This document shows, one piece after another, positions 12,901 to 47,785 of a DNA stretch of 64,000 nt. Source of the DNA: Watersipora subatra (Eukaryota > Bryozoa > Gymnolaemata > Cheilostomatida > Watersiporidae); assembly GCF_963576615.1 (NCBI RefSeq), contig NC_088708.1:62536672-62600671 (forward strand), given 5' to 3'. The notes beneath the pieces are model-generated. The model saw nothing but the letters and a program-made list of their open reading frames with translations, made no database searches and was not told the origin of the DNA. The position numbers were made by a program, and so were the translations under genes. The stretch's first letter is position 1. The number at the start of each line of letters is the position of its first letter.

Positions 12901-15900
12901 ACTAAACATGCATTGACATTCCGCTGACGGATATTCTTAACATAACAGCCATAGCGGAGGACAGGAATCAGCATCTATCCCTGAGTGACACATACCATAG
13001 CAATTTAAGACCTCTTCTCCTGCTTTCAAGTCCACACTGTTCTTCACAATAAGTCTTGGGCCTACAAAACTAATGAAGGTTGAAGGATGAGTGTGAGTGA
13101 AGAATTGATTAGAGACTTGCTGAGCTTATGGTAGATACAGAAATTATTCTTACTAGAGACCACTTTGTCAATGGTATACCAAATTCAGATAATATTACCA
13201 TAGATAAGCCTCTGGACAGACAACTCCCATGATTACCCAAGCATGTGCTGGTGGTTCATGATGTACAAAGAACTGAGACAAGGAAATACTAACACGGGCA
13301 TAATGACATCCAGAAATGATGAACACAGACGTTGGAGACATGATCAGACCTACCAGACTACCGTGAGGTAACACTAGACCAAGGTCGCCATAGATGAGCA
13401 GGCCTACCAGATTACTGTGAGATAACACTAGGCCAAGGTCGCCATGGATGAGCAGGCCTACCTGGCTAATATGTTTGGAGCGCAGGAGTGGTTCATAAGG
13501 CTAGCGGTAGGGTAGATAGCACTGGCCAGCTTCTCTTGACGCTGACTCATCACCTTTTCATTAGCTCCCTTCTCCGCTGTCCTCATCGAGTCCACCACAG
13601 TTATAGCATGAGCATTGCAAATAAGTTGCTGCACATGGCGCAACAGTAGAGTGCCTACATAGACTACATCTGGGTGTTCGAGCAAACGAATGTTTGAGGG
13701 GAAGAAGTCTGAGTCCAGGAGACAGAGAAGAAGCAGTAGAGCTGTCTAGTTAAAAAAAACTAGTCTGTGGTAAAAAAATTCAGCACGTAATCTACCATAT
13801 AGGATTTAAGCGTCGATTAATCCTGGGTAAACCAAGTCAAAAGAGAGTTGATCCATTACCTCACTACGTGTATTCAAGGTAATGCTATGGCGAGATGAAC
13901 TCAAAAATTCAGCTCTAAAAACAAACTGCAGGCTTCATGAATGTCAAACTGTAAACAAACCCACCTTTTTGTACTGAAAGAGATCTGCCGGTAGGATATG
14001 TTCCTCGTTGGTCACCAGATTGTAAACAGCATCGTATGATGCAGCGGGAAGATCCTCAGACAACGGTTCTACAGGTGATGAACCGTGGGTGCCTGGATGT
14101 GATGCTTTTCTATGGGCTAGTAAAACAGTAGCAAACATTACTACAAATGGTTTATACAAGGAATATGAGAAATGAAAGTCAGGCATTGCCAAATAAGATT
14201 CCATTAAGATAATGATAACCCAGCTAATGCTAGCCAAAGGACAAGTGTAACAAGAGGGTGAGACCTAATCAAGTAGAAGCCATAGAAGGACATACGTACA
14301 CATGAGAGTGCTGTAACCAGTCGCAGCGATGACTCTGTAAGCCAAGTGTCCAATGCCTGTCTGGTTAAGGAAAACAATACAGAAATCGATCAATTACCGA
14401 CGATCATCATTTCTTTAAATGTCAAACCAGAAATTGCTTATTCATTGGTCTTGCACAGATCCACCAAATAGGGGAGTTGAAGTCTACATATAGGAGCATG
14501 TATATAATGTTCTACCAACACAATAATTAGCCGAACAGATAAATGATTGGCAACAGAAAGAGATAAAAAATGTACTTACATTAACTACAGTGTCTAGCAA
14601 GGAGCACTCAAAGCGATGATACTCTTCATAGGACTTTCGCTGACAGGAAACACCACAGTAACATACCTTGCATTCTCGTCTTGTGCAGCTAGAAAAATAG
14701 GCTAAAGTTAAATAGTGTTGAATATGTACTAGTTGTTGACATTGACCAGTCATTATCTTGTATTTGTATATAGCCGTTTCCAGACTCTTTGTTCATATCA
14801 GCTTACTCATCTGTTATGTAATTCTTACGTAAAAAATCCTTTTACTCTCTTGTCTCACTTATGTAGTAAGTCAGTTGCTGTCTAGCTTTCAAATATACAA
14901 GAATAACAGGTTATGGGCCCAGACAGGCAACCAAAGAAGCTGTACACGAGTTTGATACCAGAACAAAGACGATCGGCTATTATACTGACTGACCAACGAC
15001 TGGTGAACCAGGAGTTAAACAGTTGATATCAGGAACAGTAAAACAAGGACTACTGAACCAGAACTTAGATTGTATCTCTCATTCTACAATGGATAGTGAT
15101 AAATGGACAATAGATAAGTTGGACAGTCAGAACTATCAGACATGGAAGTTTCAGATGAAACACATTTTGCTGGTAAAGGATCTGTACGATATCGTGGATG
15201 GTACTGAGAAAGCACCAGAAGGTTCGGCTGATCAAGCGCTGAAAACTGCTTTTACATCCAGGTATCGTAAGGCTTTCTCAGTAATTGCTCTGTCTGTTAG
15301 TACTGAACTTCTCTACTTGATAACAGATACAGAAGCACCTGATGTAGCATGGAAGCGGCTTCAAAACCACTTTGAACGCAATACACTAGCAAACAAGTTA
15401 TTTCTTAAGAAACAATATTTCAGAACAGTAATGAAGGAGGGTACACCTGTAGAACAGCACTTGAAACACATGAAAGGACTTACAGATAAACTCGCCGCTA
15501 TCGATGCACCAATTTCTGAAGAAGATCAAGTAGTCACGCTCTTAGGCAGCCTTCCAAACAGCTATGCTCATCTTGCAACGGCATTAGAAGCAAGAGTAGA
15601 CAACTTGAGTCTTGAGTTTGCCCAGCAGTCATTGATAAATGAAGAGTTGAAACGTAATGAGCGAAACTCCGATGAATCTAGTTCTGCCGGTGCATCTGAT
15701 TCTGCATTGGTGTCAAGAAAGCAGCCTAGAGCCAGAAAACCTATTATTTGCTACAACTGTAATAAACCTGGGCACAAGTCACCAGAATGCTCAGAGGACA
15801 GACGCCGACCGAACGCGCAGTTAGTAAGTGAATGTAGAAAAACTGTATGTGAAAGTGACAATGACTGTGTAGGCAATGAATTTACATTTATCACTCATCA

Positions 15901-18900
15901 TGGCAACACATTTTCATTGCACAGTAGCTCACTCTGGCTAATTGACTCTGGAGCATCGTGTCATATGTCACCTAACAGGGAAAGTTTTAATAGCTACAAG
16001 AAGCTAGAACGTATAGAAATGGTCAGCCTAGGTGATGGTCGAACAGTTGAAGCTGTGGGAGTTGGTGCTGTGAAAGTGATGCTAAAACTCAATCGTAGAG
16101 TTCAATGTGCGGCTGTATTTTACAATGTACTTCATGTCCCTCAGCTAGCTAGCAATTTGTTTTCAGTTCGAGCTGCCACTAAGAAAGGCTACATTGTTCA
16201 GTTCGGCCATACTCGATGTTGGATTAAAGATGCTACTGGTCGAGTTAGGGCCATGGGATCACTAGCTAATAAGCTGTTCAGTCTAGACTGTGTGCAAACT
16301 AAAACTCAATACGCAAACACTGCTAGCGCAGAGATTTGGCATCAACGTCTAGTACACGTGAATGACTCTGATCTGAAAAAACTGAGCAAAGGAAATATAG
16401 TCTGTGCAACAAGCTTACCTGCAATGAACATTTCCTTCTGTGAAGGCTGTGCTGAAGGGAAAATGACTCGTGAACCCTTCAAACCTGTGGGAGATATCAA
16501 GGCTACCCGTAAGCTAGAACTAGTACATTCCGACGTTTGTACAATGGAAACAGAATCAATTGGAGGTAGCAAATATTTCGTTACTTTTGTAGACGATTTT
16601 TCTAGATGCTGTGCTGTGTATTTTCTTAGAAACAAATCTGAGGTACCTGAGAAGTTGAAAGAGTTTGAAGCATATACAGCCAACCAATCTGGAGAAACCC
16701 TTCAAACACTGAGATCAGATAGAGGTGGTGAATACTTGTCTCAAGAATTTACTGACTACTTGAAATCTAAAGGTATTCATCATGAACTCACATCAGCCTA
16801 CTCACCAGCACAAAATGGTGTTGCTGAGCAAATGAATAGAACTCTGTGTGAAGCAACACGTTCAATGTTGTGCCATGCTAAATTGCCAAAGCAATACTGG
16901 GCTGAGGCCATTTCTACTGCTGCCTACGTTAGAAATCGGCTTCCCACTTCTTCACACAAGAATGATCTCACACCGTATGAGAAGTGGTATGAACGCAAAC
17001 CCAACATAGACAATCTAAGGGTGTTTGGATGTATTGCTTATGCTCATGTTCCAGATCAACTACGACAGAAACTTGACAAGTGCCAGAAGCTAAGGTTAAT
17101 AGGATACAGCAAACAGTCAAAGGCATACCGCCTGCTTGATGAATCGACTGGTAAAGTCACTACTAGGCGAGACATGGTATTTGATGAAACGAACTTTACA
17201 AACACCGTTAAACCTTCATGTGACCAATATACAAAGCAGAAATCTATTGTTGTTGAACATTCAGTAAATGAACAGACAACTCCAAACTTCTCTGGGCAAT
17301 GCATTGGTGAAGGGCAACAGCGACGCTTATCTGCTCGCAAACGTAGACCTCCGGTTCGCTATGGAATTGATGAGTATGTAAGCGAGGCTCAACATGTCAA
17401 AACTATGTGGGAGTGTTGAATATGTACTAGTTGTTGACATTGACCAGTCATTATCTTGTATTTGTATATAGCCGTTTCCAGACTCTTTGTTCATATCGGC
17501 TTACTCATCTGTTATGTAATTCTTATGTAATAATCCTTTTACTCTCTTGTCTCACTTATGTAGTAAGTCAGTTGCTGTCTAGCTTTCAAATATACAAGAA
17601 TAACAAATAGTCTTCCACTGATTATAAGGTACAACAAGACCATGCATTGAAACAGTGAAGACAGTGAGTGGGTTTCGCCATAACAAAAGGAATCCACCTG
17701 CTAGCACTTTCAATAGCGTAATACTTAAGGGGGACTCAATATGTGCAAACCTGTAGGATGGTGTGTTATGATGAAGATAAGAGAAGATTATAAATGTGGG
17801 CACTTACAACAATGGTATCTCATCAAGAGATAACAAGCAATAGTAGCAATGGGTTGGCCAGTAGTCCGGCAGCAGTACAGCAACATAAGGCATCTCACTC
17901 ATGAGCACAGATCCTGCAGAAATGTTCTTCCTTGCCTGAGAGAAATCAAAACTGATTTCGAACCAAAATAAACCTGCACTAGAGTAGGTGATGGAACTGA
18001 CTAGGGCTGCATATTAGCTCTGGGACACGTGGTTCGGCGCAATGTGATGCCATCCTACCAGATGCACTAATGTACCGATGTGCAGTTGTGTGAGTCTAAT
18101 TCGAGTACCTGGATGTAACGGCCTTTGGTCTCAGATACTTTCATTTCAATGCTAGATGAAGCGGAAGGTAGGCCGGCTTTGGGACCCATATGTACCAGGA
18201 TAGGCTTCTCATCAGCTGCGGATTGAATATCTTTAGATGGAAAACTTTCACCCAATTTCTCTAGCATCTGAGTTTCTACAAGTACAATTAAAAAACTGAT
18301 TGCAGATGAATTTCTGTTCAGTTACAGCCAAATCTCTACACGCTTAATTACCTTGCTCTGAAATTAATTTTGTACATTGGGGGCAATTATTACTATAAGA
18401 ATGAAGTATTACATTTAATTTGTTTCGCAAGTCAAAATCTTAACGATAAATACCTCAAGTTACTACATATAGCATCAAAATACATGAGTTATATCAAACT
18501 GAGTCTAAACTAAATGTACAAAAGAAAATTAATGAAGTACTAAGGATAGATATTAAGCCTTTTATTGCTATTTTACCGAAGTTACAAAAATGGAAGAATA
18601 GGAACGACAATACGTAGGTTGGGAGGTAGAAGTTCTACAAGGTGTAACTTATTCTCACTTATGCTAGTTGAAATTTAAACTAGATACGTACTTGTAACTT
18701 ACTTTATATATTTGCTATTTATTTACTATATATACTTTGTATATTTTTACATTTGTGTCTCTATCTTTACCAGCCTATTCCCTTTCACTTAGTAAACTCT
18801 GAGGTTTTAAAATACCGGCACATCCAAATTGAACGTTTTTAATTACTTCGGGTGTCAAATATTTGCTCCAATTTTATATAGTATGTCGGACAATCCTTAA

Positions 18901-27000: not shown

Positions 27001-27145
27001 ATATCATTGCTTCAACTGTCTGATTCATCACAACTTGTGGGATTTTACAAACCTATCTCAAAACTACTGAAATTTGAAATCCCTACTGCATTTATAGTCA
27101 GTAGCTCTGCATTGTCATTTTCTAGCCTTTTCAAGTCAAGCTAAA
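24020..27145. other. Intergenic, no confident gene
   Basis: Contains the presumed SMYD4 5' UTR/promoter side and about 3 kb of AT-rich DNA. A short coding-like stretch around 24830-24960 (reading with KKVKKFMRTKGSHGLP, then frame-shifted) could be a decayed exon or transposon fragment. I see no supported open gene. Confidence 0.4.
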
Positions 27146-27147
27146 TA

Positions 27148-27214
27148 GGCTATCAGCCAAGATATAAAAAGGTGCTTAGTTTTTTGATTTCGTGGGCACC
27201 TTCTTTCAGATGGA
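27148..27214 (+). repeat. Left terminal inverted repeat of the PIN/CXC element
   Basis: Begins GGCTATCAGCCAAG and closes with GCACCTTCTTTCAGATGGA; the middle is diverged from the right copy. Confidence 0.75.
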
Positions 27215-27500
27215 AGATTCCTTCAATTTATACTAATTGAAGTATGTAGATTTCAAATCTGATGAGTGACTCTGGATGTGATTCCCATTTTTTTGTAAAA
27301 CCGAATTTGCATATAAATCGGTAATTGTCTCCACCTAAAATATGAACATATGTGATTTTCAGGGCCGAATAGCAATAAAAATACAATTTATAGCAAAATA
27401 TATATTTACTATCATATCCAAGCCTACAATAGAAACTCTGTACCTGACATGAATAAAACAACTTCACATAACTTCAGACGAATACTGGTATCATTTTGAG

Positions 27501-28906
27501 TTATTCCACATCACTTTCAGCATCACTGTCCTCATTTGCATCTACATCAGATTCTGTGTCTTCAGCATTCTGGCAATCAAGGCAACCACAGAGCTCAGTA
27601 CATGGTAGCTTGGCAGTTTTGCATGCACATTTGTTGCTCATACAGCCAGTTTTCTTGCATTTGCATACAACAGATTGTATCACATTATCTGATGCAAGCA
27701 CCCCACTGTGCCACTTGATAGAATAGTCTGCCTCATCATTCTCAAGAGTCCATCCATGATTTATTGGTGGTGGTGCATCAATGGAAGCTTCAGTTGCAGA
27801 CTTCCATATACTGGCAACATAATTCGCTCTTTTCACGTGTTCTACTAGAGATTCTTTACATGGGGGAAGAGATGAGCTCACACCAGATTTGGCAATAAAT
27901 ACTTTATAGCGTAACCGATTTATGTCCGACCCGTCTTCCTGGCCATACAGTTGACAAGTATAGGCCTCGCAAAGATTGATCACCTCATCTGTGTTGAATA
28001 AATTTCCCAGTGAATTCATGGCCTGCTGGCACTTGGCATCTGTTTTTATGAGTTTGTAGTGTGTTTTTTTTCCCTTGCCAGCAAATGAGGATACTGCATC
28101 ACAGCCCGAAAAAGCGTGAACTCCGATGAGGGCATCCACTACATTATCACCCAGATTTCCTGCCATCTTAGTGACATCCAGCAACCTTCTCTTCTCTCTG
28201 GTCCCAGTTAAGATGGCCCATTGAAACTTGACCTTCCTGCAGTGGAATATTGCCATAACAGCTACGTCCGTATCTGACGATTCTATGATCACAGGCCCAC
28301 CTGCATGAGCTGCATGTAATATAAGACGTGTATCGGCCTCCTCGTGATCAGTGGCTAGGCATCTTACTTCCCCAGCAATAGGTAGTTGGTTTGGTGTAAA
28401 CATCAGACTCACACATGTGGTTTTGGTGGTGGCATACAATGTTAGTGTTGTGTCTCTTGTTAATGATCTCCAATGGCTCACCAGAAACTCCAGCATAGAC
28501 TCTTTGTTTTTTCTAGACCTGAGATAGGAGCGCCAATCTTTTGGCACGTTGACTTCGCTGTTGGTTATGTGCAGGCAGTGTTGATGCTTGATGTCTCCTC
28601 TTCTACTTCTCTCACCACCTTTGATGCTACGCTGGTAGTAGTTGTCGATAACAAAATCAACTCGAGCTGCTTTGTACTTTTTCCCACGAGCTATCAGCAT
28701 GTCTAAAATCACCTCGCCAAGTTTCCCAAAGGTAGCTGGAATAGCATTGGCTGACAGAGCCTGGATCATGGCCATAGCATCAATTATGATTGCATCCACA
28801 ACATCTAAAGTTTCAATAATGCAGTCATTGCAGTCAGCTTCAAGAGCTTGCATTAGTGTTGACTTGTTGGTTTTTGACATTGATCCGTCAGCAGCTGCCA
28901 GTGGCA
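27501..28906 (-). CDS. Last exon: PIN/FEN1-like acidic motifs and C-terminal CXC (Tesmin/TSO1-like) domain
   Basis: 467 codons, open throughout. Motifs: HEEADTRLILHAAHA (about residue 190), IIESSDTDVAVMA (about 210) and VHAFSGCDAVSSFAGKGKK (about 265). The spacing and residues resemble the acidic cluster and GCD-x-GIG-like helix-turn segment of FEN1/XPG-type PIN nucleases. Near the C terminus VCKCKKTGCMSNKCACK and CTELCGCLDC form a cysteine-rich CXC cluster like that of Tesmin/TSO1 DNA-binding proteins, followed by an acidic tail. Nuclease assignment is inference from motifs only. Confidence 0.65.
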
Positions 28907-31900
28907 CTGAAACACTAAAGAGCGGATGTGATAGAATTGATTCTAGATCAATAGGTCTTGATTTGCTGATTATCAGAAGTCTGGCAACCTGTCACTGGCA
29001 TGCATGGCAGCTTTTGCTTGCTGAGAGGTTTTCCTTTTGTTGGGTTGAAGAAAAGTAGAGAGCTTAGATGCCTTAATAGAAGTGAAAAAATCCACTGAGC
29101 CCGTCTGTATTCTTTGTTCCACAAAATCTTTCAATTTTGTCTCACCCACAGTCTGGACGCTCAGGAGATCTTTCAAAACTTTAGCAGGGGCGACATAGCC
29201 AGACATAAGACTGATAAGATCCTTGCCGTCATGCTTAAAAGGATTGATGAATGCCTTGATACTAGTGATCACTTTCTGTATGTCAGATTCATCTTTCTTC
29301 ATCCTGGTAAAAAAATAATAATAAAATTATTCACCCATGATATAATTTCAATTTTTTTTCTTTCTGAATTGGCTCAATGAAGATTCAAAGGCAGATTATT
29401 TCATAAGATTAAAATTCAAATTGATGATTGCAATACAAATTAGGCTCTTGAGCTTTTCGTGGGTGTAGAAACCTAGCGCTTGTTGGTGTGATGTGGCATC
29501 AGAGAGTTGTTAATGTATGCGATTTCGATAATTTGCAAACATGCAACACCAAATATCAATCTTTGGCAGGTAGCGAATCTCAAGGGTGTGTAATTTGCTT
29601 ATGTGAAGTTTACCTCTGCTCTGTGAGTTCTGAATGAACAGTTCCTGAGGTTTGCATGTTCCCCATTCGTTCACATTCACCGGAAATGGCAGCCCTCTCT
29701 GACTGAGTTTGATACCATCGCTGCATTGCATCTAAATGATTTAAGACAGGAACATTATTATCATAATGGCTACATACATGTAGGAGCACAATGTAAATTT
29801 CTAACGAACTATGAGTCCTTGCTTTCAATTTATTTACTGTTTGAACTGTGTACATACATCTGCTTAGATTAAGAAACTAAGAAGCTCAGGTAAAAATACT
29901 GCAGGTGAACAGACAACTACCAACACTTGTATGTTTCCTCCAACCATTTCATAACATTAACATAATTTTACCTTATAGTGATACTTACCCCTTTTTAAAG
30001 TCACTCCCTTCAAGCCACCAGTAGTCTTCGTATCTCTATTCACTGTCTGCTCAATTCCCTGGTCAGCGGATATGCTGCTGAAAGCCAGACAGTCACTACG
30101 CTGGAGTGTCCAAGACCCAGTCTCACAGAGTGCCTGGTATATCTCAGGATGAGTTGCAGGAAGTTGCACCATCTCATGCCAGTATGCTGTCCCATATCTA
30201 TAAGAAAACCAAAAAAAGGAGTAATATAGATCTCATATTTTGTAGCTATCAAATGAAATTGCTGGAACACTTTGTTTCAACTGGGTTCTAGCTATCATAG
30301 TTTCTGCCTGCTGAATGATAAAGCAATAAAAATATGAGTCAAAAGTGAGGGATTAGTCAAATGAAAATTTATATATTTTCAGTTGTAATCATAACCAGAG
30401 CTCCAATTGACAGGTACATGTACCAACCTTGCATAGTTTGGTCGATCAAGTGAGAAGAAGAATGGTAACATCAATCTGAAGGCTTGCACATGTGCATCCC
30501 AGTCTGATTCACGAGTAGCTCTAACAAACATCAAGAGTAACTGAATTGCTTGAATGTATGCATACCAGTAGGCAAACATGGGAGATTCTTGGCTTTTGGT
30601 GGTAACATAGTTTTTAAACAGTTCATAAACTTCAAGTAATTGGGGAGGACAGAAAGCTCGATGGTTACCGTTGATCACTAACTCAGCTAGATCTCTGTAT
30701 GTCTGTGCGGACAGCTCATCTAAGGTTTCACTAAAGCTTTGTAGAAGTAGCCGTGATAGACTCTCGTACATGACCTTGTGGGCACGAATGGAGCGATTGT
30801 AGTTGTGTCCATTTAGTACACTAGGCATAGATCGTTGTGCAACTATGTCTGCCTCGATGAGCACATCCTCTAAGCCTGAAAGTTTGAACATTTTACCAAT
30901 TGCTCCCATGAAAGCCATGCAAGTGTGAAACTCTCCCATTCGAAGGACAAGGCGTTTCTGGTACAGATCATTCTTCCATCTTATTTCCTGGGCTTTGCTG
31001 TAAAGTGCCTGATCAAAGACCACTACCACTGCCGTTAGATCAAAATCACTGGCTTTTTCAATGCACTGGTTTAACACATGGGAAACAGTAGACATGTCAT
31101 TAGGTGGCGCCTCAATGTTCTTCAAATAATGAAGACTTGATTTCTGAAGTAACACATCTGCTTTACACACTACATTCTTTTGATAGCCTGTCCATCCGGG
31201 GAGTAGACTTTTTGACTTTGATTTGGCTATGATGTATTTGAGCTCTTTCAAACACATGGTCATTTTCCTTTTGTTGGTCTGTAGTGATTTCTGCTGCTGT
31301 CCTAGTTACTGGAACACCAACCCGTTTGCCTTGGATGTATGGTTGAAGTACTACTGGATTGCTCCTTAGTGTTCTTTGTCTGCGTGATATACAAGTAGGT
31401 GTGGAATAGGGTAGATCAGTGAATGAGTCTGTGTGTGAGTGCTGCTGAAACATAATGCCATTCATTTGGTGTGTGGTGCCGGCCCCAGAGAGAGTTTCTT
31501 CTGTAAAATCGATATTGTCATATACCAGTATTAGTAGCTTGCCTTTACAGAAAAGTCTCGGAATTTTTACAGGGTTCTCCTCTATATCCTTAGTAATGGC
31601 AGTCTCAGCCCTAGTTACACTGTCGTAACTGACACAGTGTCCTAAGGAATGCAATAGTCTGATAATATCTGAGGATCCTGTTCGGTGTTTCAGTGTCAAG
31701 CCAAGGGCTAATGACTTAGGTGTTTGTGTCCTACCATGACTTTCTAGATGGATTATGTCTTGACATATTGACAGCAATTTTGAGTGAGATGATTGTGTCA
31801 GCTGGTTAAATTCCAAATGATTAGGCAGGTCATTTCTGTCCGATAATCCACATACAGATGACAGAAAGTTGTAGAGGAGAGGGGGGGCTGCTTGTTCTGC

Positions 31901-34380
31901 AGATTCTAGATTTAAATTGAGGCTGCTTGGAGGCCATTGCGGCTTATATATGTGAGATTTTATAGCATCACTTAACTCGAAAGCTCCATACAAGAAATTT
32001 TGCCCAGACATTGCATTGATATTTGCATGGCTTGAGTGTCGAGAGTTTATTCTTAAGCTGGGATCGGTCTCAGATATCGAGGTAGGAATGTCACTTATGC
32101 TGGGATCGGTCTCAGATATGGAGGTAGAAATGTCATTCATGTGAGTGCTATCTAATAAAGATGTCATATTTGGCGGATTGTGACCTATTTCTGATCCAGA
32201 ATCCTCCGCAGAGGAGCTGTCGCTCAGTATTGACTGCACCAAATCACCCATCTTCGCATCTTTAAAGTAGACGATCTCCTTCTCATTGCATCTCTTAGAC
32301 TTTTCAAAAATGAGGTTATCATACTTCTGCACAAGCTTGGATTTGATCTGCCCATTTCTAAAACAGTAAATGTAACTGTAAATGTAACTGTGTGCAAATT
32401 ATTTTCCCCTCCCAAACCCCTATGGCTCTCAGTCATCACTTGATAAACCTGCAACTTTTGAAAAATACACATGAGATAGTCCGAGGCAAGCACACAAAAT
32501 ATCTAAATATCAGCTTACTACTGAATGTAACTGGATATGGACTTCTGGTCTCACCTTGCAAGTTTAGTGTCACTGTACTTATTGAACAGTTTAATGACAT
32601 CCCTAATAGTCATGAACATATTTTCTGACATCAGTCTCTGGTCAATTTCTAAGCAAAATTCTTGAGGCAGCTGATTACTTCCTTCTCTCATATCATGCTG
32701 CTGAGCATCAATGCTAAACAAAGAAAAAGAGAATGTAAGAATTATATTACGATGTCAATAACACATTAAATCATATGATTTGCGAGCTAGTCATATTCAG
32801 TGAACAGTACCACCCTTTAACCCATAATAACAATAAGACCACAACACAGCACAGCCCACCAAATATTTGGATTGTCTCAGGAATGGCACCAAATCACAGT
32901 TCTCTAAATCATTATTTGAAGGGAAATATGGAAACTGATAGATTGTGATTTGTTAGCAGGTTAATGTTATTCACAATCATTGCAAACACACAACTAGTCT
33001 CACACAGTGACATATACTTTACCTGTATGCTTATTTCATGCTAAAAGACAATAATTATCAATTATATTACAACGTAACACCTTATGGTTACCATAGATTC
33101 ATTTTACAAGAAAAGACTTAACAAATGAATGGAATGATACATAAAATCAATACAACATCGTTCAAGTTTTACCAAATTTAAACTTTGTCATGCGCATTTT
33201 ATTGAGCTTGAATAAGTGATGTGAAATCTGCCATACTGTTTTCTTTCAGTAGCGGAGATGTAGGTATAATCTCTGTGGCATTTCTTGTGATAATGCATCT
33301 CTGAAGCAATAGGATCTTTGACAAAGTGCATAAGTATGCGGTTATCTTGCTTCTGTCTTGCTGCATTCTTTAGACCACCTACAGAGCAGAAAGCATATGA
33401 CATGTCTTTGTGTAACAGTAGGCTACAATGTTTTGAATTTATAATCCATGCTATGGGAAAACACAACCTTGCTAAACTTCTGAGTGCAGTCTGTTTTTCA
33501 TGACTATTTCTAATCATAGCCCAAATAACTCACCTGCATGAACAGTTTCAGCTCGCATGAGTTTGTCAAGTACTGTCTTCGATTTTACAGACAAGTATCT
33601 GGTGCGTTTCTCGCAGATCACACATACTTTTTCCAATACAGGCTTACTTGTGGACAGCTTCACATTACTTGCTGATCTTAATGTTTTCTTTGGCGGAGGG
33701 AATACGGAAATGTCTCCTGGGTCATCTGCCACTGACAACTGTGGTAAAAAAGAAAGATAATTTTTCAGACCACATGACAAAACAGGGACATAAAATGCAT
33801 TCACAAGCCAAATCAAACTTACTGGGAGGGTAACCCAATCAGTGCTGGAAAAGTGGATATAATTTTTTATCTCTTTTAATCTAACTTCTCAAGCACTTAA
33901 CTGCAATGAGTTTGTCTGTACTCTGTGTGAAATTGAATGAAAGAGATACACTGAGAACCTGACACACAACATGACAGGATCTCGGCAGGATTGGGTAGTG
34001 CTACTTAAAATTACCTCTGAGTAGTTCCTCTTTGCTTTCTCAAGCTTGCTTTTATTAACTAATTTGGAGTAGCAATTCTTGTGGATAGTTGCTCCAACCA
34101 CCAATAAATCTTCTTCTTTTAGTCTAGCACACACAGTCTTCTCAGGTTCTTTGTTAAGTTCTATCCATTGGTGGACAAAATTATGTAGCACTGAGGCTGA
34201 ATAGTCAGTTAAATTAATTAAGGCACCTTTGGTGCTTTCAAAGTGAGCCACACAAGCCATCACAGACAAACAACACAGACGAATATCGTCATGCTTACAG
34301 TTCTGTAATGTGATAGCTTGTCTCGGCTGACCTGTCCCAGTTATAGAATGAAATCTGATTGGTTAAGAAGAAAAAATTTA
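27501..34380 (-). CDS. Multi-exon uncharacterised metazoan family protein with PIN/FEN-like and CXC motifs, one frameshift
   Basis: Minus-strand exons inferred from splice sites and phase: about 34380-34015, 33738-33534, 33378-about 33238, 32713-32555, 32357-30428, 30197-29989, 29731-29614, 29303-28996, 28906-27501. Recognisable family segments in order: Cys-containing CVICEK, the HYHKKCHRDYT motif, DNIDFTEETLSGAGTTH, RMGEFHTCMAFMGAIGKMF, DRPNYAR, LPATHPEIY, then the nuclease-like and CXC exon. From memory, many closely similar uncharacterised proteins occur as multicopy families in cnidarians, molluscs and brachiopods. The 1930-nt exon switches frame once between about 31263 and 31163, so this copy is probably inactive or has a sequence error. 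The 5' end has no clear ATG. Function is not established. Confidence 0.65.
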
Positions 34381-34528
34381 CCGATAAAAACGATCGTTTT
34401 TGAGAGAAGACAACTCTTTATTCATGAAATTTGTTTCATCAATTTGACATAGACCTGGGAATTATATGTTGAGTCACTCATCAGATTCATAATCAGCACC
34501 CTCAAAATACCCTGTAGGGAAAGTTTCA

Positions 34529-34585
34529 TCCATCTGAAAGAAGGTGCTCACGAACTTGCAAGATAAATTGCCTTGGCTGATAGCC
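34529..34585 (-). repeat. Right terminal inverted repeat of the PIN/CXC element
   Basis: Reverse complement begins GGCTATCAGCCAAGG and closes with GCACCTTCTTTCAGATGGA, matching the left end at both blocks. Confidence 0.75.
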
Positions 34586-34587
34586 TA

Positions 34588-35744
34588 AAAATGCTTCTGT
34601 TCGATCGGCATATTTATTGAACAAAGAATTTATTGCTACCAGTCGTCAAATAGTTTATGCAACTGCCCAATGCTAGGTTGTTATGCCCATGTTATATTCC
34701 AATGTTTGTGAAGGTAGTAATGCCAATGGGTGTCGGTTAAAGTTTGGTGTCCTGTCCTTACAGTAATTCAAGTTACCTCTAATGTTGACATACTATTGGG
34801 TGTGGGCATGAAAAAGCGTAGAGTATTCGTGCACGTTTAAATCAGATTGGGTAAATGAATTTTCTATCATACAAAAACTGAGACCGTTTATGTAAAGTTC
34901 TTTGTTCAATGTAAAATTTTATCTTGCCATTGATGGCCGCTTGTCTATTGTCGCATCGCTGCCAGTCAGGTCATGACCCAATGTGCTTACTGCTTTAATC
35001 ACCTTGTTTTTAAAATAGCTATATACTCCCATATTACTAGAACATTAGTGAACCTTTTACACCGGAACAGCCACCACAGCCACATAGAGTTTATTACTTT
35101 GCCAAACCGCTGACCGTGTCCTCCCAATTGCAATATACTCTGAATCACCATTTTCCTTTTTGTTTTTAGCATAGGTTTTATCTTTCTTGGCATTTTAGTC
35201 TAACACCTCATAGAATGAGGTTGCACAGAATTTTTGTTTCTGTTCACTTACTATATTACTGTTTTTTAATATTCACCCAGAGAGACATACTTATACATAT
35301 TTACTCAGCCACATTTTAACTCTCTCCTGGATAAGGTGATAGAGGTATGTACTCATTATAAATTTGTTTTTATTCAATATTTGACTTTTTAAAAGATTCT
35401 TTAAATATTGTTAAAAACATTTGATGTCATATTGATATTATATGTACTCTTGTTATTATATAGCATTCTTGTTTGCGTTATTTTATCTTTATGTTTCATA
35501 TTATAATTTGTAGTTTTACAAATTAAAACTACAAATTTTAGTGTCTACGTCTATAACAGCAAATAGAATTATCTAACAAATGACACCCGTTCGAAACTCC
35601 ACGTTGTCTCTGGGAGGGCAGTTACAGTTTACAAACTTTCATTTGGTTTTACTTCAATAATTTCAGATGAAATAGCATAGCAGTTTCCAAGGACTTCTAT
35701 TATGATTATTAATTGAAAATGCATGTACTATTATCAAGTATGTA
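34588..35744. other. Intergenic, no gene seen
   Basis: AT-rich. It holds a short palindrome near 35505-35540 (TTGTAGTTTTACAAATTAAA with its complement) and otherwise nothing I can identify. Confidence 0.5.
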
Positions 35745-38320: not shown

Positions 38321-39729
38321 AGTATCCTCACAAGCAGCTAATAATGACGCATCATTTTGTCAGGGTGAAAATGCTAACGAATTATCCACAATAGTGTGGA
38401 CAACCAGTTCTATAGAAATAAATGCTGAAGGGATAGAGAAACTTATCTATGATCTTAAAAACAATAAGTCACCTGGTTCTGATGGCATTCGTAAATGTGA
38501 ATTGTTAGTTTATCCTGCGTTAACTGCACGGTGCCTTAAATACATATTTCAAGCATCTCTCAACTCCGGAAAATTACCTTCCATGTGGAAATGTGCGATC
38601 ATAACTCCTATTCATAAAAAGGGGCCAAAGGATCTGGCTTCCAACTACAGACCCATATTACTTAAAAGCGTTCCTGGAAAGATGATGGAACATATAGTCC
38701 TACATTATTTAAATAAGAAACTTGACTCTGTACTTTATAACAGACAACATGGCTTTAGGAAAGGACTGTCATGTGAGACACAGTTATGTGCAACGTACCA
38801 TGAACTTGTCAAGGCCACTGAAAACTCAAAAACTATTCATGCAGTGATCCTGGACTTTCAAAAGGCCTCCGATAAAGTTCCACACAAGCTTTTACTCATC
38901 AAACTACGTCAAATCAAAGATTTAGATCCTGCCATTGTTAACTGGATACAGGACTTTCTAACTAACAGATCCCAAAGAGTCGCAATAAAAAACACGCTAT
39001 CAGATGAGCTACCAGTTACATCAGGAGTACCTCAAGGTTCGGTTCTTGGACCAACACTCTTTCTGGTGTATATTAACGACTTACCCCAATGTGTCACCTG
39101 TAATGTGAGCTTATATGCCGATGACACACTACTATACTCCACTGTTAATAATAACCAAGACATAGAGAAATTTCAAACAAACATTGATGCTCTCCACAAA
39201 TGGTCAACTGAAAATATGATGCCATTTAACACCACAAAATGTGAAGTTGTTGTTTTTAATAATAGACTACAACAGCTACCATCTTACACTATTGGAGGAA
39301 ACCTAATCAACTGCGTGCAAGAAATTAAATATCTTGGGGTTACTATACAGTCTGACTTGAAATTTTCAAATCATATAGCCTCTAAAATAGCCTCAGCAAG
39401 TCGAACACTTGGCTCTATTAAATACACCTTACATCAAGCACCTCAACGTGCCAAGCTTCCTGCCTACCTAAGTCTGTGCCGTCCCATATTAGAGTACGCA
39501 GATGTCCTCTGGGACCCTGCAGACAAGGCATCTTGTCACAGACTGGAACTTGTTCAAAACAAGGCTATAAGATTTATCAAAGGAATAAAAGGTCGCCATG
39601 GTGTAACAGAGGGAAGGAATGATTTGGGACTACAGTCTCTTGAACATAGAAGAAAAACCCACAGAATTTCTCTCCTGATGAGAATTCTTTCAAACGAGGA
39701 AAGACAAAATACTATCATCAGCATATGAC
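38321..39729 (+). pseudogene. Non-LTR retrotransposon reverse transcriptase, 5' part, interrupted by gypsy insertion
   Basis: Open from about 38321 to 39728. RT motifs: NNKSPGSDGI, HKKGPKDLASNYRPI, NRQHGFRKGLSCETQL, ILDFQKASDKVPH, SGVPQGSVLGP, LYADDTLLYS, and the thumb region to RRKTHRISLLMRIL. This is a Jockey/CR1-type LINE RT. The endonuclease is missing, so the copy is 5' truncated. The final ~10 codons are out of frame with the tail found beyond the gypsy element, so at least one frameshift is present near 39700-39724. Confidence 0.9.
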
Positions 39730-39797
39730 TGAAGTAAATTCTACTCGACAAGGATAGACAACTCCCAACTCAAGAGCGAGTTCCACAACTTGATGAG

Positions 39798-40206
39798 TCA
39801 ATAAACAGACTTGTGGGTGAGCCGATAAACAGACTCGAGAGTGAGCCGATAAACAGACTCGCGGGTGAGCCGATAAACAGACTCGCGGGTGAGCCGATAA
39901 ACAGACTCGATGGTGAGCCGATAAACAGACTCGATGGTGAGCCGATAAACAGACTCGATGGTGAGCCGATAAACAGACTCGAAGGTGAGCCGATAAACAG
40001 ACTCGATGGTGAGCCGATAAACAGACTCGATGGTGAGCCGATAAACAGACTCGATGGTGAGCCGATAAACAGACTCGATGGTGAGCCGATAAACAGACTC
40101 GATGGTGAGCCGATAAACAGACTCGATGGTGAGCCGATAAACAGACTCGCGGGTGAGCCGATAAACAGACTCGATGGTGAGCCGATAAACAGACTCGATG
40201 GTGACT
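39798..40206. repeat. 24-bp tandem array in left LTR, about 17 units
   Basis: Unit GAGCCGATAAACAGACTCGA(T/A)GGT, 16 clear copies plus one degenerate copy. The period is a multiple of three, so open frames appear on both strands (EPINRLDG in the plus frame). Confidence 0.95.
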
Positions 40207-40850
40207 TCTCTCAATTGTACACCCTAGCAAGCCAAGCGCAATAATTCTTGATGTTCGGTCAATAGCATTTATAGTGAAAGCAGCTATGATACGCTGGCTA
40301 ATATCACAATGCTAAAGGCAGAAACAGTGACAAGAATTTTATACCCTATTTGCTTTTGAAAATCAAACAGAGCTTATTATAAAGAACGCAGTATCTTTAT
40401 TGGTGTTATATCTCTCAGTACCAAGCAGTAACACACCAGCAATGATAAAACTGACAGGTTATATAGCAATTCCAAGAAAAATCTACAGTTGATTGGCTGC
40501 ACAGTAATTAGGTCAACCAATTCCACAATAACATATTTCGAATACAAAAACGATAACATTTGTCTCTAACTAATCACGCAATACGAGTATTAATAATTTT
40601 TAGTGTTTGTATAGTAACATACAAATCTTAGAACAATATGGTAATAAATGATTAACATAAAAGAATTGCTAGTATAACCCATACATATACACTACATTGG
40701 ACAAGTGTTAAGCGTGTGCCTTATAAATGACTATTCACATTTGTCCGAATTGCGACGAACGTAATATAGATCCATTGAGTCAGCAATTTGAAGCTGCCGG
40801 ATTATAGGCTTAGAAAAGACGTCATCAACTCTCTTGCGCATGCTGACTGT

Positions 40851-40859
40851 CTATAAATA
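40851..40859 (+). promoter_or_regulatory. TATA box for antisense LTR transcription (left)
   Basis: CTATAAATA upstream of the zinc-finger ATG, about 25-30 nt before a plausible start site near CACTGATTTACAG. Confidence 0.5.
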
Positions 40860-40899
40860 CGGGTACACACTGATTTACAGTTCATTCGCTTTTACAAGC

Positions 40900-41304
40900 A
40901 TGAAGCACTCGTGCACCTTTTGCGATTTTTCTTGTCACAAGGAGCGTGACCTACAGAGGCACGCTCGTGTACACAGACACCGCTGCTCCTCCTGTGATGA
41001 GGTGTTCACCACTCAGCCTCTCCTGCATGCGCACGTCTCTGCTGAGCACCGGAGAACACAGTCTACCCAGACTGAGTCCCAGAGACCGAGGGCGCGTTCA
41101 CCTCGTCGCCAACACCATCACCGAGGGCAACGCTACCAAAGGCCACGGCAGGACCGAAGGCCGTACTGGAGGCCAGCCCGTGATGCTTGCCCTACTCCAC
41201 GGCATGAAGTGGAGTCCAAGATCGTCCGCCCAACGGTAGACTCCATCGGGGATGATAGTGACCCTCTCGGGCTACTGGACTCACCAGTCAAAATTGACTT
41301 CTGA
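40900..41304 (+). CDS. Antisense C2H2 zinc-finger ORF in the left LTR
   Basis: 134 codons from ATG 40900, opposite to gag-pol. Two C2H2 fingers occur in tandem at the N terminus: C-x2-C-x12-H-x3-H starting CTFCDF, then C-x2-C-x12-H-x4-H starting CSSCDEVF. A basic Arg/Gln/His-rich region (RRQHHHRGQRYQRPRQDRR) follows, then an acidic tail ending SPVKIDF. A TATA box (CTATAAATA, 40851-40859) lies 41 nt before the ATG, with a CRE-like GACGTCAT at 40819-40826. Its 3' end overlaps the opposite-strand pol terminus. The finger spacing argues that it is real coding sequence; expression is unproven. Confidence 0.65.
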   Translation: MKHSCTFCDFSCHKERDLQRHARVHRHRCSSCDEVFTTQPLLHAHVSAEHRRTQSTQTESQRPRARSPRRQHHHRGQRYQRPRQDRRPYWRPARDACPTPRHEVESKIVRPTVDSIGDDSDPLGLLDSPVKIDF

Positions 41305-44300
41305 GTGCCAGTAGTCTCGCCAACCACCTCGGCCCTTCTCAGGGCCACCATTTCTATTTTAAGGGTTTTGTTCTGCGTCAACAATGGCGGAAACTCAGTG
41401 TCGTACTTATCATCCATTTTTTTTTTTATTACACTGTCCCCTCCTAAGACAGAATTCTGCCCCAGAATAGCTGATAGCTTATCATTGTCTGTTTGCATTC
41501 TGTTGAGCCAATAATTTTGTAGATGCATTGGCTTCTTGGTTACCCTAGAAGGTTGCTGCTGTATGTCAGGGTTGGTTGGCTTCACCGACGTTTCCGCGGC
41601 AGGGGGTTCGGGCTCAAAACTAGTTGCTACATCTTCTGCACTTCCTCCAAAGCTTGGTCTGCGGGCCCGAGCATTCTCTCCTGGAGGAGCGCTTGTACCG
41701 GCTTCCTGGTACAGTTTAATCCGGCCTTCGTGCTGTACAGACAATTTTCCATTTCGCTCCATTTCGTACGTTTGATAGGGCAGAGATTTTGTAATGCGGT
41801 AAGGCCCAACATACTTGGGTTGAAGTTTTGTCCCTCTACCTTTTGTCTTAAAGTATGATTTGAGCCAGATTTGATCACCTTTGACAAATTTTGGCTCTTC
41901 TTCACTGTCATCCGTCCGAGGTTTGCATTTTTGATGCTGCCGTAGTTTTATGTATGCGGTCTGCATGTCTTTTTGTAATTGTGCAGCATACTCATCCTCT
42001 GTAAAATCCAACCCGGTTGGGTAGTTGACCAGGAGGTCATGCGGCAGTCGGACATTTCGCCCTAGCATCAATGAGTTGGGCGTCTCTCCAGTGCTTCGAT
42101 GTGGCGTAGCCCGTATGATCCGCATGATTTGGGGCACTAGGCGATCCCATTCCTGGTGTTCTGACTCGGCCAGCATAGCCCTCAAGGAATTTCCCAGTGT
42201 CCGGTTCAATCTTTCCACTATCGAATTTCCCTGGGGATGATAGGGAGCGCAACGGGTTTTCTTGCAGTTCCATAATTCACAGCAGGCCCTAAATAGAGCT
42301 GACTCAAACTGTGCTCCTTGGTCCGTGTGTATTGTTTCAGGGATCCCAAAGTAGCTAAACACTCGCTCATCTAGAACCTTAGCTACTGTTGAGGCCTGCC
42401 CATCACGGATTGGAATGGCGTCGTACCATCTGGTGAAATGATCTGCGAGGACTAAAATCTGGGTGCTACCGTCGGTAGTCTCTGGCAGGGGCCCACATAA
42501 ATCTACCACAATAACCTGCCATGGTCTTCCGGCCCCCAGCTTGTTTTGGGGGTCAGAGTGTCGGTGGCGTGCTGGTTTTGCTTTCTGACAAGCAACACAT
42601 CCATTCACCCACTTCCTGACATAACTCGTCATGCCAGGCCAAAACCAATTCTGGCGGATTATGGCCAGGGTCTTATTAAAACCAAGATGGGCAGATTGGT
42701 GCGCGGTCTGTGTTACCTCTGCTTGTTTAACACGGGGACATATCACCCTTGAGACTCGTCTACTTTGATAAGGCAACTCTACGTGCAGCACACCAGATTC
42801 ATCTAATTTTAGGTGCTCCCATAATTTAACTAGCTTTTCTGCCTGCCATCCCAGGTACCGGTCTGAAGGGGGTTTCTGTTCCCGGACCCCATGATACACA
42901 TCGCCAATGTGCTCATCCAACTCCTGAGCCTTGGCCAAATCAATTTGCTGTCCCGCTAGATGAGTGGATACTGCATCAATGCGTACTGGCTGCATTTGGG
43001 ATGCTTCGGGAACAAGGTAGCGTTGGCATTGCTTGCAATCTTGGCAGATCTGCCGACTTAGTCCGTCTGCATTATTATGTTTCAGCCCCTTGCGGTGCTT
43101 CAAGGTAAATTCGAATTCCGAGAGTACCTCGAACCATCGGGCTAGCTGACCTGTCGGCGTTGAAGCTCGCAGTAACCATGGCAAGCTGGCATGGTCAGTG
43201 CGTATCTCAAACCTCCGTCCATATAGTTGCGGACGGAAATGTTTTAGGGCCTTCACAATAGCCAATAGCTCCAGCCGCGTCACACAATAGTTCGCTTCTT
43301 CCGGTGAGTGCATCTTAGAATAGTATGCAATTACTCTCTCTTGACCATCTTGTTCTTGTGCCAGGACCGCTTCAGAAGCCACTTGGCTTGCGTCCGTATC
43401 TAGAATGAATGGTTTCGAGTAGTCTGGATAGGCCAGCACCGGCGCAGTTGTCAGATGATTCTTGAGAGTCTGAAAGGCATGCTGACACTTGTTGTCCCAG
43501 CAAAATTCTGCTCGGGTAGAACACAACTGGCTGAGTGGTCGAGATAGCTCTGCATAATTTGCAATGAACCTGCGGTAATACCCACAAGTGCCCAGAAAGG
43601 CCCTGACATCAGACTTATGCTTGGGCAAGGGCCATTCGCTAACAGCTTCAATTTTGGTCGCATCGGTTTCCACCCCATCAGCGCTCACCACATGCCCCAG
43701 GTAATGTACCCTCTCCCCGAAAAGCGTGCATTTAGATGGCTTCAGCTTTAATCCGGCAGCCTGGAGCCTGTGAAAGACCTCTTCTAAGCGTTCTAGGTGA
43801 GTGTCAAAATCGGCAGAGAACACAATTATGTCATCTAGGTAGATCAACAGTGTGCGCCAATGCAAGCCCCGTAGAACTGTTTCCATTAATCGTTCGAATG
43901 TAGATGGTGCTGAGGTAAGGCCGAAAGGAAGAACTTGCCACTCCCAAAGACCGGATCTAGTAGTAAAAGCGGCAGCTTCCTTGGCAGAACTTTCTAGCTC
44001 CACTTGCCAATAGCCACTGGCAAGATCTAGAGTACTGAACCACTTGCTACCACCCAAGGCATCCAAGCTATCATCAATTCTAGGGAGAGGGTATGCATCC
44101 TTGGTGGTGAGTTCGTTCAGCTTACGGTAGTCCACACAGAAGCGCCAGCTGCCGTCTTTCTTTTTCACCAACACAACTGGGGAGCTCCAAGCGCCATGGC
44201 CCTCCTTGACTAAGCCATGTTCCTTGAGCTCTTGCACTTGCTTTTCTATTTCTGCCTCTTGAACCGGGCCATGCCGATAAGGCCTTTGTTTGATGGGTCG

Positions 44301-45238
44301 TGCATCTCTAACCAAAGGAATGGTATGCTGGACAACAGCTGTCCTTCCAAGATCATACTTGCCTGTACTGAAAATTGACTGATTTTTCTGCAATAACCCC
44401 ATTGCCCTTTTTACTTGGTTATCGTCCAACCTATGGCACCATTGTTGAAAAGCATTCTCAAGGTCTTCCGGAAGCGCTCCATTGGTCGGCCCCATGCTTG
44501 GGTTATCTTCCACCGCCCCAACTATGGAACAGCTTGCGACGACCTGTCCCGATTTCAGCTCAATTTCCGCATCTGAATAGTTCATCATGCGTATACAGAC
44601 ATCTTGATTTTTCGGTTGATGTATGGATGAGGCCACTACTAGCCCTGGCAGCCCACCAGTGTGCTCTATACACGCTGCCCCATGCCTCCAAACGCGATTC
44701 AACCTAGCTTGAACGAGCTTCTCACTACGGGGTGGAATGGATGTAGTGTATTTGGCCTGGACCTTGACCTGCAAGGGCTCTCCGTTGGCAGCGCAGCAAT
44801 CGATCTTCTGTCCTTGGCAGACCAGCTGATTGTTCTTGAAATCAATCTGGCAGTTAAAGTTCTTGAAGAAGTCAAAACCCAGCAGGATATGGTTATCTAT
44901 TTCGGCAATGATGAAGTTCGTTACAAATACTTCATTGCCCAACTTCAATGTGACTTTTGTTGTCCCTTCCAATGGAATTCGTTGGCCATCTGCAAGCACA
45001 CCCTGGCCTTCAACAGGTAGGGGGTGGGTGAAGGAAGACGGAGGTAGCTGTTGTAGGACTCTTTTAGGAATTATGGAACGGGAACAACCACTATCGAGAA
45101 GAAGCGTAAATTTTGTCTTTCCTACCTGAGCCCGAACATAATACGATGTGGCCTCGGAAGGTTGACAGAAACTAACTAGTGTGTCACCCCTTAGGTTTGG
45201 TTCAGCTTGTCCGGGGCCTATGACTGCTGAACTGATTC
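41133..45238 (-). CDS. pol: Gypsy pol: protease, RT, RNase H, integrase
   Basis: The open minus-strand frame is entered from gag by a -1 shift at 45245-45239. Protease LLLDSGCSRSI lies at about 45100. RT has KKKDGSWRFCVDYRKLN, LDLASGYWQ and LIYLDDIIVFS; RNase H has FILDTDAS; the integrase HHCC finger is followed by VVDLCGP, HTDQGAQFES and YHPQGNSIVERLNRTL (D, D, E). There is no chromodomain that I can see. The frame continues through the polypurine tract into the LTR and stops at 41133, so the last ~100 residues are LTR-encoded and may be an incidental extension. No internal stop. Confidence 0.93.
41434..41446 (-). other. Polypurine tract
   Basis: In sense, TAGGAGGGGACAG directly precedes the 3' LTR. 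Confidence 0.8.
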
Positions 45239-46159
45239 GTTTCCCGCCTTCTTTTGTCTGCAGTCACGAGAAATATGTCCTAAACCCTGGCAATTGTAGC
45301 AGCGTATGTCCTTGGTGGTTCGAGGCCTCCGGTTAGCCGCCAGTCCATTTAACAGCTCTCGCTGAGAGGTTGCCAACTGTCTTTGTGATTCCACCAATTT
45401 CTGGGTTAGTTCCATTTGCATGGAAGCAAATTTATCCAGCATTTCCTTTTGAGAGTTGCGAAACTCTTCAGCCTGCAGCTCTATTTGCTTCTTTAGGTCT
45501 TGGACGTCCTCTGTCTCTAACCGGTGGATCCCTACATCGGCAGTTGTCATTGAGCGATATTTATGGATGATATCGACTGCCTCTGCGAGAGAACTTGGTG
45601 GTGACAACCGTAATGTCCATGCCAATTGTGGCATTGTTGACACTGCACACAGAACTTCCTGTTTCGCTTGTTGATCCTGTTGATCAGTCGTTAAATTTGG
45701 GTACGCCTTTTTCACCAATGTCATTACTTTTTCCCCAAATTTATGAACGCTTTCTTTAGGTTTTAACTTCAACCCCCGCAAAAGAGTATTTGCCATATCT
45801 GTAGTGAGTCCATACTGCGATTGTAGCTTATCGTACACTTCCTCACATGAGTCGCCATTAGTTCCCATTGTAGCAGGGCCCTTTAGGGATAGCCGAAGAC
45901 GTAGCTTCTTCTCAGCATCACTCCATCTATTATGTTTAGCAATGGCTTCATAGCTAGTGATGAATGTGTCTACATCTTCTGTTCCATCAAATGTGGGTGC
46001 GGGGATTGGATGATGTGGTGGGACAGCTGCCTTCATGTGTGGCCGCCCTATTTCTTCCTCATCACCACTGTAATGGTCATGACACCCCCGTTCCATTTCT
46101 AGCCTCTCTTTCTCTAACCTTTCCTTTTCTAACCTCTGTCGTCGAGTGCGTGTAGGCAT
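45218..46159 (-). CDS. gag: Gypsy gag with CCHC zinc knuckle
   Basis: 313 codons from ATG 46159. A basic/acidic N terminus (repeated RLEKE) is followed by a capsid-like region (APTFDGTEDVDTFITSYE onward), a long coiled coil (about residues 215-270) and a single CCHC knuckle CYNCQGLGHISRDC. It ends at TAG 45218, 21 nt after the slippery heptamer. Confidence 0.92.
   Translation of the reverse strand: MPTRTRRQRLEKERLEKERLEMERGCHDHYSGDEEEIGRPHMKAAVPPHHPIPAPTFDGTEDVDTFITSYEAIAKHNRWSDAEKKLRLRLSLKGPATMGTNGDSCEEVYDKLQSQYGLTTDMANTLLRGLKLKPKESVHKFGEKVMTLVKKAYPNLTTDQQDQQAKQEVLCAVSTMPQLAWTLRLSPPSSLAEAVDIIHKYRSMTTADVGIHRLETEDVQDLKKQIELQAEEFRNSQKEMLDKFASMQMELTQKLVESQRQLATSQRELLNGLAANRRPRTTKDIRCYNCQGLGHISRDCRQKKAGNESVQQS
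45239..45245 (-). promoter_or_regulatory. Putative -1 ribosomal frameshift site GGGAAAC
   Basis: In the gag frame the heptamer reads G GGA AAC, a canonical X-XXY-YYZ slippery sequence. The pol frame is exactly -1 to gag and open across this point. I did not identify the downstream pseudoknot. Confidence 0.75.
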
Positions 46160-46191
46160 TCTGGGTTCGTCTAGATTGCTCTAGCAGAAAT

Positions 46192-46209
46192 ATCCCACCG
46201 CTGCCACCA
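46192..46209 (-). other. Primer binding site, tRNA-Leu
   Basis: In sense, TGGTGGCAGCGGTGGGAT begins two bases inside the 5' LTR end and is complementary over 18 nt to the 3' end of metazoan tRNA-Leu (ATCCCACCGCTGCCACCA). Confidence 0.85.
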
Positions 46210-46278
46210 GTGAAGTAAATTCTACTCGACAAGGATAGACAACTCCCAACTCAAGAGCGAGTTCCACAACTTGATGAG

Positions 46279-46687
46279 TCAATAAACAGACTTGTGGGTG
46301 AGCCGATAAACAGACTCGAGAGTGAGCCGATAAACAGACTCGCGGGTGAGCCGATAAACAGACTCGCGGGTGAGCCGATAAACAGACTCGATGGTGAGCC
46401 GATAAACAGACTCGATGGTGAGCCGATAAACAGACTCGATGGTGAGCCGATAAACAGACTCGAAGGTGAGCCGATAAACAGACTCGATGGTGAGCCGATA
46501 AACAGACTCGATGGTGAGCCGATAAACAGACTCGATGGTGAGCCGATAAACAGACTCGATGGTGAGCCGATAAACAGACTCGATGGTGAGCCGATAAACA
46601 GACTCGATGGTGAGCCGATAAACAGACTCGCGGGTGAGCCGATAAACAGACTCGATGGTGAGCCGATAAACAGACTCGATGGTGACT
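46279..46687. repeat. 24-bp tandem array in right LTR
   Basis: Copy-for-copy the same array as in the left LTR, with the same order of variant units, as expected if both LTRs were copied from one template. Confidence 0.95.
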
Positions 46688-47331
46688 TCTCTCAATTGTA
46701 CACCCTAGCAAGCCAAGCGCAATAATTCTTGATGTTCGGTCAATAGCATTTATAGTGAAAGCAGCTATGATACGCTGGCTAATATCACAATGCTAAAGGC
46801 AGAAACAGTGACAAGAATTTTATACCCTATTTGCTTTTGAAAATCAAACAGAGCTTATTATAAAGAACGCAGTATCTTTATTGGTGTTATATCTCTCAGT
46901 ACCAAGCAGTAACACACCAGCAATGATAAAACTGACAGGTTATATAGCAATTCCAAGAAAAATCTACAGTTGATTGGCTGCACAGTAATTAGGTCAACCA
47001 ATTCCACAATAACATATTTCGAATACAAAAACGATAACATTTGTCTCTAACTAATCACGCAATACGAGTATTAATAATTTTTAGTGTTTGTATAGTAACA
47101 TACAAATCTTAGAACAATATGGTAATAAATGATTAACATAAAAGAATTGCTAGTATAACCCATACATATACACTACATTGGACAAGTGTTAAGCGTGTGC
47201 CTTATAAATGACTATTCACATTTGTCCGAATTGCGACGAACGTAATATAGATCCATTGAGTCAGCAATTTGAAGCTGCCGGATTATAGGCTTAGAAAAGA
47301 CGTCATCAACTCTCTTGCGCATGCTGACTGT

Positions 47332-47340
47332 CTATAAATA
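47332..47340 (+). promoter_or_regulatory. TATA box for antisense LTR transcription (right)
   Basis: Same CTATAAATA in the right LTR. Confidence 0.5.
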
Positions 47341-47380
47341 CGGGTACACACTGATTTACAGTTCATTCGCTTTTACAAGC

Positions 47381-47785
47381 ATGAAGCACTCGTGCACCTT
47401 TTGCGATTTTTCTTGTCACAAGGAGCGTGACCTACAGAGGCACGCTCGTGTACACAGACACCGCTGCTCCTCCTGTGATGAGGTGTTCACCACTCAGCCT
47501 CTCCTGCATGCGCACGTCTCTGCTGAGCACCGGAGAACACAGTCTACCCAGACTGAGTCCCAGAGACCGAGGGTGCGTTCACCTCGTCGCCAACACCATC
47601 ACCGAGGGCAACGCTACCAAAGGCCACGGCAGGACCGAAGGCCGTACTGGAGGCCAGCCCGTGATGCTTGCCCTACTCCACGGCATGAAGTGGAGTCCAA
47701 GATCGTCCGCCCAACGGTAGACTCCATCGGGGATGATAGTGACCCTCTCGGGCTACTGGACTCACCAGTCAAAATTGACTTCTGA
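47381..47785 (+). CDS. Antisense C2H2 zinc-finger ORF in the right LTR
   Basis: Second copy of the 134-codon ORF with its TATA box at 47332-47340. It differs from the left copy by one residue (RVRS instead of RARS). Here the antisense promoter sits in the 5' LTR, so a transcript would run out of the element toward 48000. Confidence 0.65.
   Translation: MKHSCTFCDFSCHKERDLQRHARVHRHRCSSCDEVFTTQPLLHAHVSAEHRRTQSTQTESQRPRVRSPRRQHHHRGQRYQRPRQDRRPYWRPARDACPTPRHEVESKIVRPTVDSIGDDSDPLGLLDSPVKIDF

Follow-up and report, generated by a model that had tools for sequence, protein, structure and literature searches.

A 64,000-nucleotide stretch of the Watersipora subatra genome (the window; contig NC_088708.1, positions 62,536,672 to 62,600,671) carries a unit that lies between inverted repeats and appears to be filled by one spliced gene. 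An original prediction, drawn from the letters of this DNA, had described it as an undescribed mobile element with bipartite terminal inverted repeats (TIRs). The window unit is a 7.44-kb copy of a multicopy cut-and-paste DNA transposon, bounded at its TIRs, and it most probably represents a new family of AcademX kind. The repeats are indeed bipartite, and a 3-bp target-site duplication lies directly outside them:

27146..27161, plus strand: left outer terminal inverted repeat (TAGGCTATCAGCCAAG), complementary to 34572-34587 at 16/16 positions
34572..34587, minus strand: right outer terminal inverted repeat, pairing with the left one
27189..27300, plus strand: left inner inverted repeat block, 112 nt, 71% complementary to 34443-34554
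34443..34554, minus strand: right inner inverted repeat block, pairing with 27189-27300
27143..27145: left copy (AAA) of the 3-bp target-site duplication, from flank comparison
34588..34590: right copy (AAA) of the duplication, from flank comparison

The gene model on the minus strand comprises eight candidate exons with GT-AG candidates at all seven introns. It was drawn from the DNA sequence and protein homology, and at the edges of exons 2, 5, and 6 one of several splice candidates was chosen:

34015..34260, minus strand: putative exon 1, from a putative ATG (reading frame and donor)
33534..33738, minus strand: putative exon 2, with a CVIC motif (two acceptor candidates)
33237..33378, minus strand: exon 3, with HYHKKCHRDYT (homology to P0178 and P0171; weak donor)
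32555..32713, minus strand: putative exon 4 (GT-AG candidates)
30428..32357, minus strand: exon 5, DDE-type RNase H-like transposase domain (homology, structure prediction, GT-AG candidates)
29989..30197, minus strand: exon 6, with a DQxIEQTxNRDxKT motif (homology, GT-AG candidates)
29614..29731, minus strand: exon 7 (GT-AG candidates; homology to P0159)
27501..29303, minus strand: exon 8, with a linker, an XPG/FEN1-like nuclease, and a CXC domain (homology, fold, GT-AG candidates)

Together with homology to separate exons, these intron candidates argue for the single end-to-end multi-exon gene that had been proposed. Protein P0159 (named Patella caerulea) shows homology through exons 5 to 8 in order, and the fish protein P0178 over exons 3, 5, and 6. 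HYHKKCHRDYT belongs to an N-terminal stretch that putatively binds zinc. The original prediction rightly regarded this copy as damaged but counted one frameshift; we find the frame disrupted near 31163-31305 in exon 5 and near 28973-28991 in exon 8. Because of these at least two disruptions, the window copy, as judged from its frames, cannot make its own full protein. Another copy (L011) keeps both large exons intact, with frames of 672 and 633 codons; a further one (L009) has an open first and a broken second large exon.

The ends were searched for in the window's own assembly (784 Mb, 239 contigs) and are more than a chance pairing. At least 40 places, the window included, match the left 115 bases of the element (40 of 47 candidates scored); the alignment starts at query base 1 in 39/40 and at base 2 in 1/40. 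The right 188 bases gave 25 genome matches; seven are weak and hit left ends via the inner repeat. In three of the nine other copies fetched, the match runs from element base 1 to base 7442 and then stops, so that homology ends at the TIRs as predicted. These full-length copies share 98.4% (L009), 99.0% (L011), and 96.6% (L013) identity with the window element. L012 and L015 retain both ends around an internal deletion, and L010, L014, L016, and L017 have the left end and inner parts, with no right end within the fetched stretch.

A 3-bp direct repeat (AAA, AAT, CAT, GTG, TGT, or TTA) stands immediately outside the TAG...CTA ends in the window copy, L009, L011, L012, L013, and L015, a count of 6/6 that leaves out L023, L025, and L027, which also carry both ends. 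TA is present at both ends, as had been noted, but it is not the target duplication: the flanks repeat the 3 bp outside it, and the empty sites described below do not show the additional TA expected had TA been duplicated. We also observed a 323-bp derivative (L027:501-823) that resembles a miniature inverted-repeat transposable element and is built from the element's two ends (132 and 183 bp).

Empty sites were sought by joining each copy's flanks with one copy of the duplication and matching the product to the genome. Twelve of the 36 resulting matches are the flanks themselves. The L015 junction is spanned by eight matches (five at 90–93% identity, three at 68–69%) and that of L013 by 15 (87–90%), while the joined flanks of L009, L011, and L012 gave no junction-spanning match in their own genome. 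Among eight junction matches that were fetched, the four from L015 and the three from L013 proved unbroken across the junction at 90–95%; in the empty site L030, the 3 bp at the junction differ by one base. Thus, the empty sites called for by the original prediction exist for two other copies. The window junction has a single spanning match at about 70–71%, which we do not count as proof of an empty site. Because several genome sites span their empty junctions, the L013 and L015 insertions sit within dispersed repeats. At their target sites (L028-L034), AGGTC or GGTC directly follows the duplicated 3 bp; the motif is not seen at the other four copies and so may be chance.

Of the 40 left-end matches, 22 fall within 18 Mb of contig C6 (48-66 Mb). 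Five copies fetched from this cluster (L018-L022) were all deleted internally at one and the same joint; between L020 and L021, identity is 98.8% across 5 kb, reaching beyond the element. The cluster appears to be an amplified chromosome segment carrying one deleted copy rather than separate insertions, and for this reason its homology past the TIR is not evidence against mobility.

The original prediction had placed a nuclease in the role of a DDE transposase and missed the DDE-type domain that we find in exon 5. Its first two aspartates (in LVYDNIDF and VVFDQALY) are nearly invariant among aligned relatives; 63 proteins match P0119, itself included. In structural comparison of the predicted model, DDE transposases or integrases fill the top 12 rows at moderate Z, and families that have no row may also fit. 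The best rows are the P-element and hAT (Hermes) transposases, whose superfamilies make 8-bp target duplications. For the third catalytic residue, E375 of P0119 (GLED..IE) is one candidate, with 46 E and one D among 47 sequences; the nearby D371 is present in 47/47, yet is not kept in related families B and C of the same genome (see below). An alternative site is DQxIEQTxN, about 50 residues past RxNYAR, which occurs in 19 of the 24 sequences reaching that far, a set that includes families B and C several times each. This pattern was not found in P0052, P0074, P0087, P0189, or L038. In exon 6, the last catalytic glutamate may lie within the DQxIEQTxNRDxKT motif. The latter half of the DDE region weakly matches DUF6589 (Pfam PF20231; E 5.3e-6, 25.8 bits), as do 8/47 relatives at E≤0.01. 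We rejected DUF6589 as an identity because the score lies below the curated Pfam gathering cut-off of 27; a literature search found no paper on DUF6589. An NCBIfam scan returned nothing above its cut-offs.

Exon 8 contributes two further parts, both of which the original prediction had foreseen:

27765..28868, minus strand: XPG/FEN1-like nuclease fold, covering residues 42-409 in the 27501-28991 frame (homology and predicted structure)
27564..27668, minus strand: Tesmin/TSO1-like CXC domain, residues 442-476 (Pfam TCR)

The predicted PIN/FEN1-like fold has a conserved acidic center, and the modeled domain combines the XPG/FEN1 fold with seven acidic metal-binding positions (D71, D116, E218, D220, D240, D242, and D298). 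Two of its acidic motifs were aligned to EXO1; the remaining correspondences are putative and follow the order of the motifs. The CXC region matches Pfam TCR at E=1e-5 (26.2 bits, above the gathering cut-off of 23.5) and a lin-54 homolog chain (5fd3_A) at E=2.5e-5, with TCR matches at E≤0.01 in 20/53 aligned sequences. Unlike in FEN1, EXO1, XPG, and XRN nucleases, the element's putative nuclease domain lies within a transposase polypeptide and is followed by the CXC domain.

Given these results, we assign the element, with a probability of roughly 0.83, to a new family of AcademX kind encoding one spliced protein with N-terminal Cys/His, DDE, XPG/FEN1-like, and CXC parts, an assignment made from the published description. 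AcademX was reportedly defined by Kojima in 2020, and its nuclease is said to be of the XPG type. Academ is listed among superfamilies with a DDD/E transposase (PMC9587614) and is associated with a RecQ helicase (PMC3627910). Within the superfamily, AcademX is described with 3- or 4-bp duplications and AcademH with 9- or 10-bp ones, and passages of the same source suggest, without going further, a relation between duplication length and the encoded nuclease (AcademX) or helicase (AcademH) (PMC10045372). The present element shares with AcademX the DDE superfamily, the nuclease, and the short duplication: 3 bp are duplicated in its own family (6/6) and in families B (5/5) and C (2/2), the nuclease is indicated by the predicted XPG-like fold with conserved acidic residues, and the transposase by a predicted fold of moderate Z with two aspartates. 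AcademH, as described in PMC10045372, belongs to the same superfamily but differs in its helicase and 9–10-bp duplications, as opposed to a nuclease and 3 bp here. We rejected it given the 3-bp duplications and the lack of any helicase in a Pfam scan of seven window-copy reading frames. Because a DDE superfamily, a nuclease, and 3–4-bp duplications make up the AcademX description, as far as the cited passages give it, calling the element undescribed is unsupported. Among titles and abstract openings, we found no paper centered on XPG, flap endonuclease, PIN, or CXC combined with a transposase.

A separate, unnamed superfamily that shares the domain content of AcademX without kinship is improbable, though it retains some arguments. 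The likeness is one of description. A CXC domain, TAG...CTA termini, and a gene of eight exons may set the element apart from AcademX, and the Academ passages cited here mention neither of the first two. The hosts of relatives also range wider than the bivalve-centered picture in those passages. Against this, a nuclease with 3–4-bp duplications within a DDE superfamily is the very contrast published for AcademX, in the passages cited (PMC10045372, PMC9587614).

Still less probable is a transposon moved by the PIN/FEN1-like nuclease alone, with exon 5 as a non-catalytic accessory domain. Two observations speak for it: the XPG-like fold with its acidic residues is the best-supported part of the protein, and the DDE assignment is the weaker one, Foldseek with the DDE model having returned nothing at E≤0.001. 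In a departure from the P-element and hAT transposases, the DDE profile matched no solved chain by sequence. On the other side stand the many relatives of exon 5, its nearly invariant aspartates, and the structural rows filled by DDE enzymes. The 3-bp duplication fits DDE strand transfer, for which such a length is ordinary, and no XPG nuclease is known to join strands. A domesticated host gene flanked by a chance pair of miniature inverted repeats, suggested by the spliced gene filling the whole unit, has next to no likelihood and is refuted by the three whole units elsewhere (96.6–99.0% identical TIR to TIR, each with its own 3-bp duplication) and the empty sites of two copies.

For the AcademX-like element, we tentatively propose, at somewhat less than even odds, a self-contained two-nuclease transposase in which cutting and joining of the transferred strand fall to the DDE domain, and an active FEN1/XPG-type nuclease in the same chain cuts the other strand or branches. 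The zinc-binding parts (N-terminal region and CXC) would bind the element ends, and the DDE domain would cut the transferred strand and join it, staggered by 3 bp, to the target. The XPG-like domain would cut or trim the nontransferred (5′) strand or branched joints, and host repair would fill the remaining gaps. Tn7 offers a parallel in the pairing of TnsA, a nuclease of another fold, with the DDE enzyme TnsB; the two are named together in PMC3627910. This is a likeness of work, not membership, as TnsA is type II restriction-like and a separate protein. If the two-nuclease reading is true, a repair-enzyme fold has been turned into a working part of transposition.

Protein searches of the same genome extend these observations to related families. 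The C-terminal frame gave at least 89 matches (86 of 1,882 candidates scored) and the exon-5 frame at least 129 (128 of 235). Ten loci were fetched (L036-L045). Family B (L038, L039, L040, L042, and L043) spans five contigs at 98.4–99.3% identity over about 6.75 kb; its ends read TAGTAG...CTACTA, and 3 bp are duplicated in 5/5 copies. L038 and L039 each hold a single open 1,307-codon frame, and the L038 frame could be aligned with the window element's protein over both halves and the CXC domain. Since the copies are near-identical, with clean 3-bp duplications and two open frames, the movement of family B may be recent, and such copies make an XPG-type nuclease role in transposition testable. 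Family C consists of L036, L037 (a segmental duplicate of L036), and L041; its ends read TAGTGG...CCACTA, and both independent insertions (2/2) show the 3-bp duplication. In family D (L044 and L045), frames of 641 and 635 codons lie inside 1.0–1.4-kb inverted repeats. The one copy of family E (L046:767-7311), a distant relative with 26% identity to the exon-5 query, has 422-nt TIRs at 95% and TAGT...ACTA at its termini. An aaa flanks it on either side, compatible with a 3-bp duplication; no CXC was seen in its listed frames. In a DDE-region tree, families A (that of the window element), B/C, D, and E are separate from one another, with E a long branch of unsure placement.

In related families, a single open frame holds the DDE, XPG-like, and CXC parts together. 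Named animal relatives are labeled uncharacterized, hypothetical, or unnamed proteins, which now gain a place within a transposon. The homology searches covered proteins 0.55 to 1.75 times as long as the query, and so would mostly miss full-length relatives of some 1,300 residues.

Elsewhere in the window, positions 39721-47782 look like a long terminal repeat retrotransposon, judging from frames and repeats: a 1,376-codon frame (41136-45263, minus strand) has direct copies of the same frames on either side, and a 17-copy 24-bp repeat is likewise directly repeated on either side. An 808-codon frame at 14993-17416 (plus strand) resembles a Copia-type retroelement, judging by a motif. A 4-kb tandem array at 57627-61597, with a 30-bp unit in about 134 copies, has long open stretches on both strands.
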